Shown here: positions 23,782-28,415 of the stretch, piece by piece
Numbering within the stretch: position 1 is the first letter of the stretch
Layout of the letters: each line of letters begins with the position of its first letter
DNA from: a bacterium
GTDB taxonomy: Bacteria > JAMCPX01
NCBI GenBank assembly: GCA_021792615.1
Contig: JAJYUJ010000030.1
Location: 1-32,600, forward strand
Direction of reading: 5' to 3'
DNA length: 32,600 nt
Made by a program: the position numbers and the translations under genes
The notes under the pieces: generated by a model
Seen by the model: only the letters and a program-made list of their open reading frames with translations
Told to the model about the DNA's origin: nothing
Database searches by the model: none

Positions 23782-24444
23782 TTACGACCCTTTAAAGAGT
23801 TGCTGAATTTTATCGATATGCTCTTTTTTGACAATCGCTATAACCTCATCATTCTGTTTGAAAATTGTTTCACCTTTCGGGATGAGCGTTTTGTCCTCCC
23901 GGTAGATAGTAACAATGATAATGCCTTCAGGAAGCCCGAGGTCCTTGATCTTTTTGTCGATGATATACGATCCCCTGGGTACGTCCACCTGCACCAGTTC
24001 AACATCCCCGCCCTTGAGTGGAAATAGAGGGACGACAACATCGCCTGCCTGCACCTGTTCTTCGATGAGGTAGTTGAGGATTCTTGTGGAATTGATGGTC
24101 GCATCAACACCGATACTCTGGAATATTTCCTCGTTTGCAGGGTCTGATACCCTCGATATCGTCCGCGGTGTCATAAACATCAGTTTGGTAAGCTGACAGA
24201 TAACAAGGTTTGTTGCGTCATCTCCGGTCAGTGCGGCCACGACATTGGCCCGGTTAGCGCCGGCAACCTTTAATACAGAAGCATTTGCACCGTTGCCGAG
24301 CATTATGGCATCCCCGAAGTTTTCCGATAACAGTGTTACCTTTGTTTTATCCTGATCGATGATAGTAACCTCATGTCCGCCGGATAAGAGCGTTTTTGCG
24401 AGATTGACACCTGCTTTGCTTGCGCCAACGATAATGATATACAT
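23782..24444 (-). CDS. TrkA-type RCK protein with N and C domains
   Basis: The 220-aa cytosolic regulator has a TrkA-N Rossmann domain (residues 1-~125; glycine motif IIVGASKAGVNLAKTLL and acidic IIDQD for NAD). A TrkA-C ligand domain follows (~140-218; YIIDKKIKDLGLPEGIIIVTIYREDKTLIPKGETIF). RCK pairs gate K+ transport in response to nucleotides. E. coli TrkA has N-C-N-C in one chain; here the function is split between this gene and the next (9-nt gap). No TrkH/KtrB pore gene is adjacent; the transporter of the operon is an APC-family protein. Confidence 0.88.
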   Translation of the reverse strand: MYIIIVGASKAGVNLAKTLLSGGHEVTIIDQDKTKVTLLSENFGDAIMLGNGANASVLKVAGANRANVVAALTGDDATNLVICQLTKLMFMTPRTISRVSDPANEEIFQSIGVDATINSTRILNYLIEEQVQAGDVVVPLFPLKGGDVELVQVDVPRGSYIIDKKIKDLGLPEGIIIVTIYREDKTLIPKGETIFKQNDEVIAIVKKEHIDKIQQLFKGS

Positions 24445-24453
24445 AATCCCCCC

Positions 24454-24855
24454 TTATGATAATCCCGGCATTTTCAGAAGTGCGTCGATGGTAAGACTGG
24501 TAGGACATACGACTTCGATTCCGAGCTCCGTGTACACGGTAACAAGGTTTATGTCAAACAACCGCATGATGACCTTTATTGTTTTGTCTACGAGCTTTAT
24601 TTTCTGCGCTATCATGATGTTCGTGTAATCGTTCCCTGTAATCACGAGTACGAGATCCGCGGGTTTTTTTAATGCCTGACGTATAATCTTCTCATCCGTA
24701 CTGTCTCCTACAAGGAATTCGACCCCTTGTTTATCCTCGATGTACATAAATTTGCTCTCGTTTTGTTCCAGAACGAGCACGCTGTCGCCCCGTTTGGAAA
24801 AAACACTGACAAGTCTTGAACCAAGCCTGCCTGAACCTATGATAACAACACGCAT
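24454..24855 (-). CDS. TrkA-N domain-only RCK protein
   Basis: The 133-aa protein is a single Rossmann domain: VVIIGSGRLGSRLVSVFS (glycine-rich nucleotide loop), VLVLEQNE (acidic end of strand 2), GDSTDEKIIRQA, and VLVITGNDYTNIMIAQ. The TrkA-C domain is missing. The stop of the preceding UspA gene directly abuts its ATG. It may pair with the 220-aa TrkA protein to make a two-chain equivalent of TrkA. Confidence 0.87.
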   Translation of the reverse strand: MRVVIIGSGRLGSRLVSVFSKRGDSVLVLEQNESKFMYIEDKQGVEFLVGDSTDEKIIRQALKKPADLVLVITGNDYTNIMIAQKIKLVDKTIKVIMRLFDINLVTVYTELGIEVVCPTSLTIDALLKMPGLS

Positions 24856-25419
24856 TTACGTTTCCTCCTCCCCGGGTAGTTTGTCGATGATGACCTCGCA
24901 CGGTGCCTTTCTCAGGACTATGTCCGATGTCCTTCCGAGTATGTTTTCTTTGAGCCCGATGTGCTGGCGTATACCCATGACGATAACGTCCGCATCCTGT
25001 TCTCTGGCCAGCTTTACTATCTCTTCCCCGGCTGAACGCGATCGTACGATAAGGGATTTGTTTTTCATTTTATGCAATGCTGCAAGCTGCTCTCCATGGG
25101 AAATGGCCTCCTGGGCAACTTTGTCCTCATTTTCCATCTCGGCATTTAACGGGAGTGTCCTCGGGACTTCTATGACATAAGCAAATATAAGGGTTGCATT
25201 CTGCTCCGTCCCGAGTCTGCAGGCAAGCTCAACGCCCCGTTCCGAGTATGCCATGCCCTGTGTCGGTATGAGCAGGTTTTTTAAGGCCTCGACCTCCCGG
25301 TGAGCCCGCGCAGCCACCTGGGGGATGATAGGCGGGACATGGAGCATCCACCAAAGAAGGGATATAATGGATATCAAAAAGAACGCTGCAATAATAACGC
25401 CAAGCGTTGACTGGATCAT
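24856..25419 (-). CDS. Membrane-anchored universal stress protein (UspA family)
   Basis: The 187-aa protein has an N-terminal membrane helix (residues ~7-27, IIAAFFLISIISLLWWML). A UspA fold follows (KNLLIPTQG, GVELACRLGTEQNATLIFAYVIEVP, ADVIVMGIRQHIG, GRTSDIVLRKAPCEVIIDK). The ATP-binding G-x2-G-x9-G[ST] loop is only partly kept (GIRQHIGLKENILGRTS). UspA-like domains attached to transporters bind nucleotides and sense energy or c-di-nucleotide state. It overlaps the two-helix gene by 4 nt. Confidence 0.87.
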   Translation of the reverse strand: MIQSTLGVIIAAFFLISIISLLWWMLHVPPIIPQVAARAHREVEALKNLLIPTQGMAYSERGVELACRLGTEQNATLIFAYVIEVPRTLPLNAEMENEDKVAQEAISHGEQLAALHKMKNKSLIVRSRSAGEEIVKLAREQDADVIVMGIRQHIGLKENILGRTSDIVLRKAPCEVIIDKLPGEEET

Positions 25420-25619
25420 TGCCTGCCTCTTACGTAGTTGAGAACGAACCGTATCCTGTATATGCCAAAGGCTATAAAGCTTATGCCGACGAGCAACGGA
25501 AGCCAGATATGGATTCCGGCGGCCAACGTGGCCGAACGTATAATAATTACTATACCGATGACGACAAACAGAGCGCTGTTTATTGCCTTGAACTTATCTG
25601 TCAGTTTTAATCTGTTCAT
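25416..25619 (-). CDS. Small two-helix membrane protein
   Basis: The 67-aa protein has hydrophobic segments at ~15-33 and ~38-55, with positive residues outside. It is unrecognised. It starts inside the end of the transporter gene (26-nt overlap) and overlaps the UspA gene by 4 nt, so it is certainly part of the operon and may be an accessory subunit of the transporter. Confidence 0.75.
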   Translation of the reverse strand: MNRLKLTDKFKAINSALFVVIGIVIIIRSATLAAGIHIWLPLLVGISFIAFGIYRIRFVLNYVRGRQ

Positions 25620-27189
25620 GCTTCTTCAGCTTTTCATCGCGTTCTTTTAATGCAATCCTGTACTCCTCTGCAAGGTCGAATTCCTCTGCCGAGATCAGTA
25701 CATCCATCTGGTGTGCCTCCCAGTTCCGCTCGATGCTTTTTGTCACGGGCATGTTGTTCTTTTTTTTGAAGTAGATAAAGTAAACAATTCCCAGCACTAC
25801 CCATGCCGGGCCTGCGATCCTTCCAATCTTATGCGTTAGTATCACCTCAAACAGCACCATGCCGACACCAAGGAATCCCAGAATACCAAGTACGGGAAAA
25901 TCGACAATCCTGTCTTTGTAATGAATTTTTAGGTTGAGCGGCATCTTGTATGGCCTTGGTGTATACGGATCGGAAAAGCGCAGGCGTATCAATGCTACGA
26001 AAACAATAAGGTAACCCAGGGTAGCGCCGAACGCATACATATTGCCGAGCGTATCCATGGCCTGAGGTGTCAGGAATGACAATAGCATCTCCACGATACC
26101 GATAACAGAAAAAACAACGATGGTTCTTACCGGGGTCCTGTATTTTGGACTCACCTTATCAAACCACTTTGTTATAAGGCCGAACTCGCTCATGGAGTAC
26201 GTCAATCTTGATGCGCTCATGACGCCGGAGTTGGCAGAGATAAGCAGTATGGTCGCACCAAGCAGTGCCGTTACCGGACCTGCAAAGAGTCCTATGTAGG
26301 GTATCGCATGTGCAAGCGTCGCGATGGGATCACCTATATGCTGTTGAAAGGTTTGCCAGGGCAGCACACCGAGGCTCAGGGTCGAGAATGCAGTTGCAAA
26401 AATAAACACGGTAAAGATCAGGGTTACGGACGTCCGCGGTATTATTGTTGCAGGCCTTTTGGTTTCCTGCGCTGCCTGTGATATGGATTCGAGCCCTACG
26501 AACGATATGATACCGAGCGACGAGCCGTACATAAACTGATGGAGTGTCGGAAAGGATGTCTGCCACTGCTGAATAAGGTACTCTGGCTTCCATGCAAATA
26601 AAAAGCCGAAAATAATGACGGATGATTCTATAGAAATATCAAAGGCGCCGATAAGTTCGTTAAAGAGCGAAGATTCTTTTATACCTATGATATTCAACCA
26701 GATTAAAAAAAGGATAAAAGCAAAAGATTCCGAAAGCCACAGATAATTTATTTTCAGGGATCCGAGCATAAAGACAAAATGGGACGGCTCGATGCCAAAA
26801 TAAGGCAAAAAGAAATTTACATATCCGGCAGATGCAACGGCAAACAGGGCAATATCAATGGTGTAATCGAGCAAAAGCGCGACTCCGGTCGTAAATCCCC
26901 AAAAATCCCCGAGTCCCCGAAGGGCAAAGTAGTGCCCGCCGCCTGCAACCGGGTATGTTGCTGCAAGCTCTGTGTAGGCAAATCCGATCATAATATAGAC
27001 AATGCCTGCTGCTGCAAACGCAAGGCTTGCTGCGCCCTGTGCTGCTGCTATGACAAGTCCAAGGGCAGCATAGATATCTGCTCCGACATCTGCGTATCCC
27101 CACATGTAAGAGCCCCATACGGTGATATCCCTTCTGAGTTCGTGCGGAAGTTCTGGAGATGGAGGTGTACTGGTATTGTCGCTGACCAT
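25594..27189 (-). CDS. APC-superfamily permease (amino acid or K+ transporter)
   Basis: The 531-aa protein has about twelve hydrophobic segments. TM1 reads WGSYMWGYADVGADIYAALG in place of the usual APC GSGIF-type loop. GGGHYFALRGLGDFWGFTTG and LLLDYTIDIALFAVASAGY follow, then an extended cytosolic tail with a charged helix (~490-531). Members with this TM1 and LLxDY signature resemble the APC-fold potassium transporters (KimA-like) as well as uncharacterised amino-acid permeases. Genes for UspA and TrkA proteins immediately downstream favour a nucleotide-regulated cation transporter, but that is inference. No clear ribosome site precedes the ATG. Confidence 0.85.
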   Translation of the reverse strand: MVSDNTSTPPSPELPHELRRDITVWGSYMWGYADVGADIYAALGLVIAAAQGAASLAFAAAGIVYIMIGFAYTELAATYPVAGGGHYFALRGLGDFWGFTTGVALLLDYTIDIALFAVASAGYVNFFLPYFGIEPSHFVFMLGSLKINYLWLSESFAFILFLIWLNIIGIKESSLFNELIGAFDISIESSVIIFGFLFAWKPEYLIQQWQTSFPTLHQFMYGSSLGIISFVGLESISQAAQETKRPATIIPRTSVTLIFTVFIFATAFSTLSLGVLPWQTFQQHIGDPIATLAHAIPYIGLFAGPVTALLGATILLISANSGVMSASRLTYSMSEFGLITKWFDKVSPKYRTPVRTIVVFSVIGIVEMLLSFLTPQAMDTLGNMYAFGATLGYLIVFVALIRLRFSDPYTPRPYKMPLNLKIHYKDRIVDFPVLGILGFLGVGMVLFEVILTHKIGRIAGPAWVVLGIVYFIYFKKKNNMPVTKSIERNWEAHQMDVLISAEEFDLAEEYRIALKERDEKLKKHEQIKTDR

Positions 27190-27217: not shown

Positions 27218-27952
27218 TTAATCTGTTGTAGTTTGCGTGAATCTGGCAAGTAATGCTTTGTTTGTTTGTATATTCATCGTGCTTTCGATACTTTTAATCC
27301 ATGTATCATAAGCTGACTTTGCCAACGAGTAGCGTAACTGTTCTTCTGTCTGCCCCGGATTTTTCTGCTGCTTTGTGGTATCGAGAGCATTTAATATCCT
27401 GACTTCACCATCGCTCAGAAAAACATTGTCATAGAACAGGTTCTTCAATTTCAACATCAGGATGTCGTTGCTGACATCATTCTGAAAATTTTCCGGCGTA
27501 ATATTGTTTTCCCTCAGCACGGCATAATATATTCTGGGATCGAACTGATGCTCCTTGTTCAGAAACGCCGGGGTGTGACTTATTTGATCCATGAGCTCTT
27601 GTGTCGTAACCATAAACCCGATGCTGTGCGCCTGCTGGGTAGCAACTTCATTCGAAATAAGATTGTTCAACACTTGATCCGGTATATCCAATTTATTCAG
27701 CATTCCCTGCGTCATTTCCCCTTTGAACTCCCTGCGGTATGCCTTTACCGTGTTTCTGTAAGCACGGGAAAAATCATCGATGGATATGGCATCCCGGTTT
27801 ACGACTGCCACAGTCCCTTCAGAAAGCCCGGTACCGCAACTCTTCATGATGCCGAATATGCCGCCAAACCCTCCGAGGAAGGTAAGTGCGATAATAAAAT
27901 AGAGGACTTTTAAGCCCCAATTGCCAGTGTATTTTCTGATGTAATTTAACAT
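27218..27952 (-). CDS. SurA N-terminal/PpiD-like membrane-anchored protein lacking the PPIase domain
   Basis: The 244-aa protein has a short cytosolic N-terminus, one membrane helix (~13-35, VLYFIIALTFLGGFGGIFGIM) and a periplasmic SurA_N-type chaperone region (VAVVNRDAISIDDFSRAYRNTV, DQVLNNLISNEVATQQAHSIGF). PpiD proteins are about 620 aa and carry a parvulin domain; this one stops before it. It may be a minimal periplasmic chaperone. It lies 28 nt upstream of the permease on the same strand and could head that operon. No ribosome site is seen; the start is 8 nt after a -10 box. Confidence 0.82.
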   Translation of the reverse strand: MLNYIRKYTGNWGLKVLYFIIALTFLGGFGGIFGIMKSCGTGLSEGTVAVVNRDAISIDDFSRAYRNTVKAYRREFKGEMTQGMLNKLDIPDQVLNNLISNEVATQQAHSIGFMVTTQELMDQISHTPAFLNKEHQFDPRIYYAVLRENNITPENFQNDVSNDILMLKLKNLFYDNVFLSDGEVRILNALDTTKQQKNPGQTEEQLRYSLAKSAYDTWIKSIESTMNIQTNKALLARFTQTTTD

Positions 27953-28342: not shown

Positions 28343-28415
28343 GCGCCCGTAGCTCAGTGGATAGAGCGTCGGACTACGAATCCGCAGGCCGGGGGTTCAA
28401 ATCCCCCCGGGCGCA
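28343..28415 (+). tRNA. tRNA-Arg (anticodon ACG)
   Basis: This 73-nt cloverleaf has acceptor arms GCGCCCG/CGGGCGC with discriminator A, a D-arm GCTC...GAGC, an anticodon loop CTACGAA (anticodon ACG) and a T-arm GGGGGTTCAAATCCCCC. CCA is not encoded. The outermost anticodon-stem pair is U-C, a mismatch. ACG is normally deaminated to ICG by TadA and then reads CGU, CGC and CGA. A single transcription unit with its own promoter is likely. Confidence 0.95.

Follow-up and report, generated by a model that had tools for sequence, protein, structure and literature searches.

The window analysed here is a stretch of 32,600 nucleotides (nt), positions 1 to 32,600 on the forward strand of contig JAJYUJ010000030.1 (GenBank assembly GCA_021792615.1), from a bacterium of the GTDB lineage Bacteria; JAMCPX01. 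Between positions 27189 and 23782 it carries five co-directional open reading frames (ORFs), encoding in order an APC-fold permease, a two-helix protein (TM67), a membrane-anchored UspA protein, a TrkA-N protein and a TrkA-N+C protein (Table 1). The TM67 gene overlaps the permease gene by 26 nt and the UspA gene by 4 nt, and the gaps further downstream are 0 and 9 nt; the gene order, overlaps and gaps described in an initial annotation made from the letters alone agreed to the base with the ORF list and Pfam. We consider it likely that this operon encodes a KUP-like K+ importer regulated by RCK and Usp proteins.

Table 1. Genes of the permease operon and the ORF preceding it, in window positions (aa, amino acids)
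Feature	Position	Strand	Basis
APC-fold permease, 531 aa, conserved cytosolic C-terminal tail	25594..27189	-	ORF; Pfam AA_permease_2, 9.6e-37
Two-helix micro-subunit (TM67), 67 aa	25416..25619	-	ORF; family profile; coding pattern; alignment
UspA-domain protein with N-terminal membrane anchor, 187 aa	24856..25419	-	Pfam Usp, 4.8e-22
TrkA-N (RCK_N) only protein, 133 aa	24454..24855	-	Pfam TrkA_N, 8.9e-20
TrkA-N + TrkA-C (RCK_N + RCK_C) protein, 220 aa	23782..24444	-	Pfam TrkA_N, 2.3e-26; TrkA_C, 1.6e-16
SurA/PpiD-like N-terminal domain ORF	27218..27952	-	named from our own sequence reading; 28 nt before the permease start

A five-gene cassette and its relatives

The 67-aa protein matches no Pfam family above the cut-off. 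In an alignment across phyla, its ORF keeps its frame and a conserved pattern ending in G-x-Y-R, and the window and a relative (L015) differ at 16, 7 and 25 first, second and third codon positions, respectively. Because the frame and G-x-Y-R are kept and change is biased to third positions, we regard this ORF as a gene on its coding pattern. In the UspA protein, both the membrane anchor and a tail of the form LGRTSD..LLR.APCEV are conserved among 21 aligned sequences. Pfam and a PDB match of the TrkA-N+C protein to chain C of 3l4b (TM1088B; 1.4e-27) show that RCK_N/RCK_C regulatory subunits of the TrkA/KtrA kind are present in the operon. The same division into an RCK_N-only chain and an RCK_N+RCK_C chain is seen in the Trk/Ktr-type pair TM1088A/TM1088B of T. 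maritima. In three loci (L040, L048 and L068) the equivalents of the two TrkA genes are fused into one ORF, which in L048 contains two TrkA_N stretches and one TrkA_C according to Pfam; these natural fusions and the solved T. maritima pair support the idea, put forward in the initial annotation, that the two TrkA chains form one RCK assembly.

The phylum of the window (hereafter the home phylum) is represented in the genome collection by nine genomes of one family, seven of which contain the permease (no match in G003 and G005). The five-gene order is complete in five of six home-phylum contigs, the sixth ending inside the UspA gene, and the cassette is therefore more than a chance arrangement. 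When named genomes were scanned with an alignment of seven sequences, related permeases turned up at 49 loci with 51-99% identity, spread over about a dozen phyla. The record titles name Bacillota/Clostridia, Nitrospirae, Zixibacteria, Chloroflexi, Methylomirabilota, WOR-3, Myxococcales, Terriglobia, Armatimonadetes, Proteobacteria, Coprothermobacterota and Melainabacteria; most of these loci come from metagenome bins, whose individual phylum labels may be in error, and one Bacillota/Clostridia locus is from an isolate, Moorella thermoacetica. The gene order, whose conservation was a check proposed with the initial annotation, recurs in relatives elsewhere and is conserved in about nine phyla. 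A plasmid collection gave no match to the permease at 1e-30, and matches to the TrkA-N+C protein there led only to loci of Nonomuraea, Streptomyces and Halococcus.

Profiles built from the window proteins were applied to 55 permease ORF rows followed by 3 kb or more of sequence (rows rather than loci, since the broken Moorella permease counts twice and L130 has two permeases). The micro-subunit lies beside the permease in 36/55 rows and UspA in 43/55, compared with a TrkA gene in only 24/55 (downstream in 20; TrkA-N upstream in four). On these counts the tight core of the cassette is permease, micro-subunit and UspA, with TrkA frequent but not universal. The literature searched contained no description of an APC-UspA-TrkA cassette, most subscription papers being outside the search, so that absence is not proven; the cassette is real and widespread and, in that literature, apparently undescribed.

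In M. thermoacetica DSM 21394 (L067:5977-7169) the permease is interrupted and reads as two ORFs, of 79 and 257 aa, either as a pseudogene or through a sequencing error; the riboswitch (see below), micro-subunit, UspA and both TrkA genes appear undamaged. A second APC protein of 405-442 aa follows shortly after UspA in TrkA-less Bacillota (L053:8250-9554, L054, L056-L059 and L065), that of L056 being an AA_permease_2 protein.

Binding-site residues and placement of the permease

The AlphaFold model of the permease (mean predicted local distance difference test score 87.9) shares the APC fold of KimA, the KUP-family protein of B. subtilis (6s3k/8b71), with a VIA-align Z of 41.6 to 8b71, level with the 41.5 obtained for the amino-acid-side transporter GkApcT (6f34); no family is ruled out by absence in this comparison. 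An hhalign comparison with a KimA homologue (E 1.4e-6) aligned the sites in transmembrane helices (TM) 3, 6 and 10. In KimA, the residues D36, Y43, D117, Y118, T121, E233 and Y377 are essential according to the accessible text of PMC6994465; their counterparts in the window are D34, Y40, D108, Y109, D112, E234 and Y385, which gives the K+/H+ sites, as in KimA, an Asp (TM1), an Asp-Tyr pair (TM3), a Glu (TM6) and a Tyr (TM10). The TM1 register was set by MAFFT, in which D34 is in register with the GDIGTSPLY of Kup and the KimA column is shifted, D36 being matched by eye. The initial annotation had called TM1 KimA-like; it proved to resemble Kup (GDIG) more than KimA, with VYGDIGTSPLY in E. coli Kup (TrkD) against GYADVGADIY in the window, and DALSSVAY in KimA against ADVGADIY.

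These residues are strongly conserved. Among 65 family rows (the broken or truncated L067, L069, L071 and L072 left out), D112, E234, N320 and Y385 are invariant, and D34 is found in 63, D38 in 63, Y40 in 62, D108 in 61 and Y109 in 52 (Phe in 13). A G-x-G in the unwound part of TM1 is the substrate motif of amino-acid APC transporters. All seven amino-acid-side APC proteins compared have G-[STA]-G where the cassette family has G36-A37-D38, residue 38 being Asp in 63/65 rows and Asn in 2/65; none of the seven has the TM1 acid, and six lack the TM10 Tyr. ApcT and CAT4 lack both the TM1 Asp and the TM10 Tyr; the seven include two Bacillota proteins (L053 and L056) without a known substrate. The LLxDY pattern noted initially is present (LLLDY, residues 105-109), but it is not specific to K+ transporters and was rejected as a K+ signature, as plant CAT4 has LDYTI. 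Two Chloroflexota copies of the permease without UspA or TrkA (L116 and L117) carry Ala at residue 34 in place of the TM1 Asp, possibly with a changed or lost function; the genome with L116 (G063) also carries a copy with the Asp (L115).

In a tree of 37 APC proteins, the amino-acid side is split from the cassette family, the 'bridge' proteins described below, KimA and Kup with a Shimodaira-Hasegawa-like approximate likelihood-ratio (SH-aLRT) support of 99, across long branches. The split is kept without Kup, in a tree with 16 of 17 cassette rows (L063 dropped by a name filter and the bridge row L107 because TM10 is missing from the alignment). An approximately unbiased (AU) test did not reject a clade of the cassette family with CAT/ApcT (p 0.268). 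The phylogeny called for by the initial annotation thus does not put the permease clearly in an amino-acid clade, and on its sequence we describe it as KUP-like in its site, with its deep placement undecided. The 'bridge' proteins (L132:3129-4616, L133:3088-4593, L134:2899-4749, L104, L107 and L109), of about 500-690 aa, have the motifs YG[DN]VGSSIYYALG in TM1, LDYIITIAIS in TM3 and LYSFGA in TM10 and look intermediate between the cassette family and KimA/Kup; they are possibly another undescribed group of K+ transporters.

Riboswitches, other K+ importers and the substrate

In many relatives the cassette is preceded by a cyclic di-AMP (c-di-AMP) riboswitch. The Rfam family RF00379 was found directly upstream of the permease in L029, L030, L032, L033, L034, L036, L048, L067 and L068, with scores of 71-95 bits (gathering threshold 38), at 55-275 nt from the permease ORF in the eight loci measured and just upstream in L029. 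These are nine of 14 searched TrkA-bearing cassettes outside the home phylum (L039, L040, L043, L124 and L125 have none), compared with 0/31 loci without downstream TrkA (Fisher 2e-6, the loci not being independent). These searches of the loci gave no further RF00379 site. The count leaves out L031, with 84 nt upstream, and the 31 loci include five in which the contig ends soon after the permease (L035, L037, L044, L066 and L070) and four with TrkA-N upstream (L061-L063 and L115).

The genomes considered were 51 carriers of the permease family or members of the home phylum. Genome-wide, RF00379 occurs in 25 of the 46 searched (G002-G005 and G008 left out), at 54 sites above gathering, and the cassette site is the only one in five genomes (G010, G012, G016, G027 and G046). 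In G006, of the home family, the only site lies just before kdpA (C7:86921-87056, L146), and sites adjoin kdpA in six further genomes (G033-G036, G042 and G043). The c-di-AMP cyclase (PF02457) is encoded in 46/51 genomes, the window's genome (G000) included, and is so common that it is weak evidence.

K+ uptake is generally essential. In G000, which is 99.55% complete, TrkH, Kup, KdpA and KimA all gave 0 matches, and TrkH/KtrB is absent from the nine home-phylum genomes. Across the 51 genomes, TrkH was found in seven, Kup over the cut-off in six (three clear, three with low scores at KimA-like genes) and KimA-like genes in 11. Sixteen have none of TrkH, Kup, KdpA and KimA, including G000, G001 and G007 (92%), and also G022, a genome of about 2.1 Mb with a cassette contig of 2.12 Mb. 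Among 251 Chloroflexota genomes, TrkH was found in 1/19 with this permease, 0/20 with a bridge protein and 90/212 with neither (Fisher 0.001 for the cassette permease and 4e-5 for the bridge group, relatedness uncorrected).

The initial annotation had raised the prospect that the TrkA genes are linked to a distant TrkH in relatives. In five of the seven TrkH-positive genomes (G023 and G047 left out), 5/5 distant TrkH/KtrB genes have their own adjacent RCK gene, and an orphan TrkH was rejected there as the TrkA partner. The operon might still be a matter of neighbourhood only, with TrkA proteins that serve another, for example unlinked, channel beside an unrelated permease. The many permease loci without TrkA fit this, as does the TrkA linkage, which needs at least nine changes on the tree. 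The conserved order in about nine phyla speaks against it, as do the position of TrkA both upstream and downstream, the overlapping or abutting genes, the riboswitch before the whole gene set, the separate RCK gene that each TrkH examined has beside it, and the fused RCK of a K+ channel of G000 (L001). We therefore think mere neighbourhood very improbable.

A regulated K+ transporter could also work outwards. The operon would then encode an exporter or exchanger of K+ or another monovalent cation, or a transporter of Mg2+ or other divalent ions, D38 and D112 favouring a different ion or direction; these two carboxylates are absent at those places in KimA and Kup. Kef efflux is also RCK-regulated. 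As far as the accessible text of PMC10117811 goes, the efflux systems Kht and Cpe are RCK-regulated as well. Against this reading, the home genome has a KefC-like protein (L003) but no other recognised importers, and the c-di-AMP riboswitch precedes importers, namely kimA and ktrAB in B. subtilis (PMC5573677) and kdp in B. thuringiensis (PMC6488665), in the parts of these papers available to us. Export or divalent-ion transport is in our judgement very unlikely.

Several observations weigh against K+ import by this operon. No RF00379 site lies upstream of the operon in the window or at four other home-phylum loci, the whole G000 genome contains none, and no degenerate riboswitch was found upstream in the window at a permissive threshold. 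KdpA is present in 26/51 genomes, and four of the seven TrkH-positive genomes are TrkA-bearing Bacillota (G009, G013, G014 and G045; not G011), so the exclusion of TrkH is not general. G000 encodes a K+ channel with a fused RCK and the filter TVGYS (L001:1165-2178, contig C46), and K+ could therefore enter this organism otherwise. To these points are added the limited TrkA linkage and the AU result described above. In the permease itself, the K_trans (Kup) model PF02705 has no match (only AA_permease_2 and AA_permease do), nor does it match in G000; in TM1 the Tyr follows the Asp at 6 residues, against 7 in KimA and Kup, and the place of KimA T121 is taken by D112, so that selectivity may differ; and the TM10 Tyr is not exclusive, since E. 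coli YjeH carries one in that column. GkApcT and CAT1 head the PDB profile list (GkApcT 8.8e-30 for 5oqt and 6f34), from which KimA, too distant for a match at 1e-5, is absent, and Foldseek also ranks amino-acid transporters first, with GkApcT (6f34/5oqt) at the top.

Such matches, together with those to PF13520 and TIGR00909 and the clade with CAT/ApcT left standing by the AU test, would fit a CAT/ApcT-like amino-acid transporter or a polyamine transporter for osmoadaptation, tuned by RCK and UspA to the K+ or nucleotide state and with the riboswitch controlling an osmolyte transporter. The accessible text of PMC3766115 describes ydaO-yuaA RNAs as regulating a wide variety of transporters, possibly osmoregulatory. 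The permease, however, scores far under the curated cut-offs (TIGR00909, 174.4 versus 556.8 bits; BcaP, 147.9 versus 690 bits), G-A-D (63) or G-A-N (2) replaces the TM1 G-x-G in the 65 rows, and the KUP-like acids and Tyr are conserved. RCK proteins are moreover established partners of K+ transport, and TrkH is rarer where the cassette permease occurs. An amino-acid or polyamine substrate hence seems unlikely to us. K+ is favoured over amino acids because of the riboswitch before the relatives' cassettes, the residues of the binding site and the absence of other K+ importers from the home genome, and as a substrate it appears well supported, if indirectly.

A proposed mechanism and comparison with known systems

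On this sequence evidence, we propose that the membrane part is not a TrkH channel but a secondary transporter of APC fold that resembles KUP/KimA and most probably works as a K+/H+ symporter. Its K+ site would consist of D34 and Y40 (TM1), D112 (TM3) and Y385 (TM10), and E234 (TM6) would serve as the proton site by analogy with KimA. TM67 and the membrane-anchored UspA would be accessory subunits docked on the permease, and UspA would correspond, as a protein of its own, to the cytoplasmic domain that KimA carries within its chain. TrkA-N and TrkA-N+C would make up one RCK ring, which would respond to NAD(H), ATP, ADP or a similar nucleotide by gating or inhibiting transport. The c-di-AMP riboswitch would control expression in many relatives. 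By eye, the window TrkA-C does not clearly show the c-di-AMP signature of RCK_C given in the accessible text of PMC10117811, and we therefore do not claim direct control of the ring by c-di-AMP. K+ as the substrate, coupling to protons, assembly into a complex and the sensing roles of UspA and RCK are predictions of this model.

The system is built from known modules, as a variant of K+ uptake. It shares with KimA, besides fold and site, control by a c-di-AMP riboswitch (in the cassette relatives; for KimA see above). It differs from KimA, which has a HUP-like domain in its own chain and for which the sources available to us report no RCK or UspA partners. According to the accessible text of PMC6994465, that cytoplasmic domain of KimA has the same fold as PPAT and as its equivalent in a cation-chloride cotransporter. 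From Kup the window permease differs in lacking a PF02705 match. Kup is not known to us to have RCK or UspA partners. GkApcT and CAT are the nearest solved relatives by profile and Foldseek and share the AA_permease_2 domain. The likeness to Trk/Ktr is confined to the split RCK chains, as the TrkH/KtrB pore is absent from the window's genome and the partner gene here is an APC permease.

An APC-fold transporter beside two TrkA genes is also found in Nonomuraea, where a KimA homologue (L020:2176-5660; 3e-120 to 6s3k) lies 70 nt from a TrkA pair. It differs from the cassette in being a true KimA-type protein, divergently transcribed, at a locus without UspA or micro-subunit matches. We take Rv2690c of M. 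tuberculosis to be a KimA-like APC protein. In the accessible text of PMC12216072, ceoB and the adjacent Rv2690c have a common transposon phenotype and are both listed under the Trk system; term searches of the available text of three CeoBC papers found neither TrkH nor Rv2690 named. Both loci are analogues of the cassette, not members of its family.

The wider proposal, to which we give an even chance, is that the cassette represents a further class of bacterial K+ importer in about a dozen phyla, a separate-chain symporter on the APC/KUP side (permease, two-helix subunit and UspA sensor) with an RCK ring in its TrkA-bearing part, which replaces Trk, Ktr, Kup, Kdp and KimA as the main importer in the window's organism, and that, taken with the actinobacterial KimA-TrkA pairs, RCK rings regulate LeuT-fold transporters. 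If true, RCK (TrkA) regulation, known from channels and CPA-type exchangers, would also take in a transporter of LeuT fold, a membrane partner would be pointed to for the mycobacterial CeoBC, an orphan TrkA pair, and the automatic 'amino acid permease' annotation of a widespread family would be corrected. Near-complete genomes without a recognised K+ importer (G000 and G022) gain a testable candidate.

Upstream of the permease, a homologue of the SurA/PpiD-like ORF was found in 6/6 home-phylum contigs examined, and it probably belongs to the same transcription unit in the home phylum. Further upstream of these genes, the window has a tRNA gene at 28343-28415 (+); in L015, L018 and L043, too, tRNA genes occur close to the cassette.

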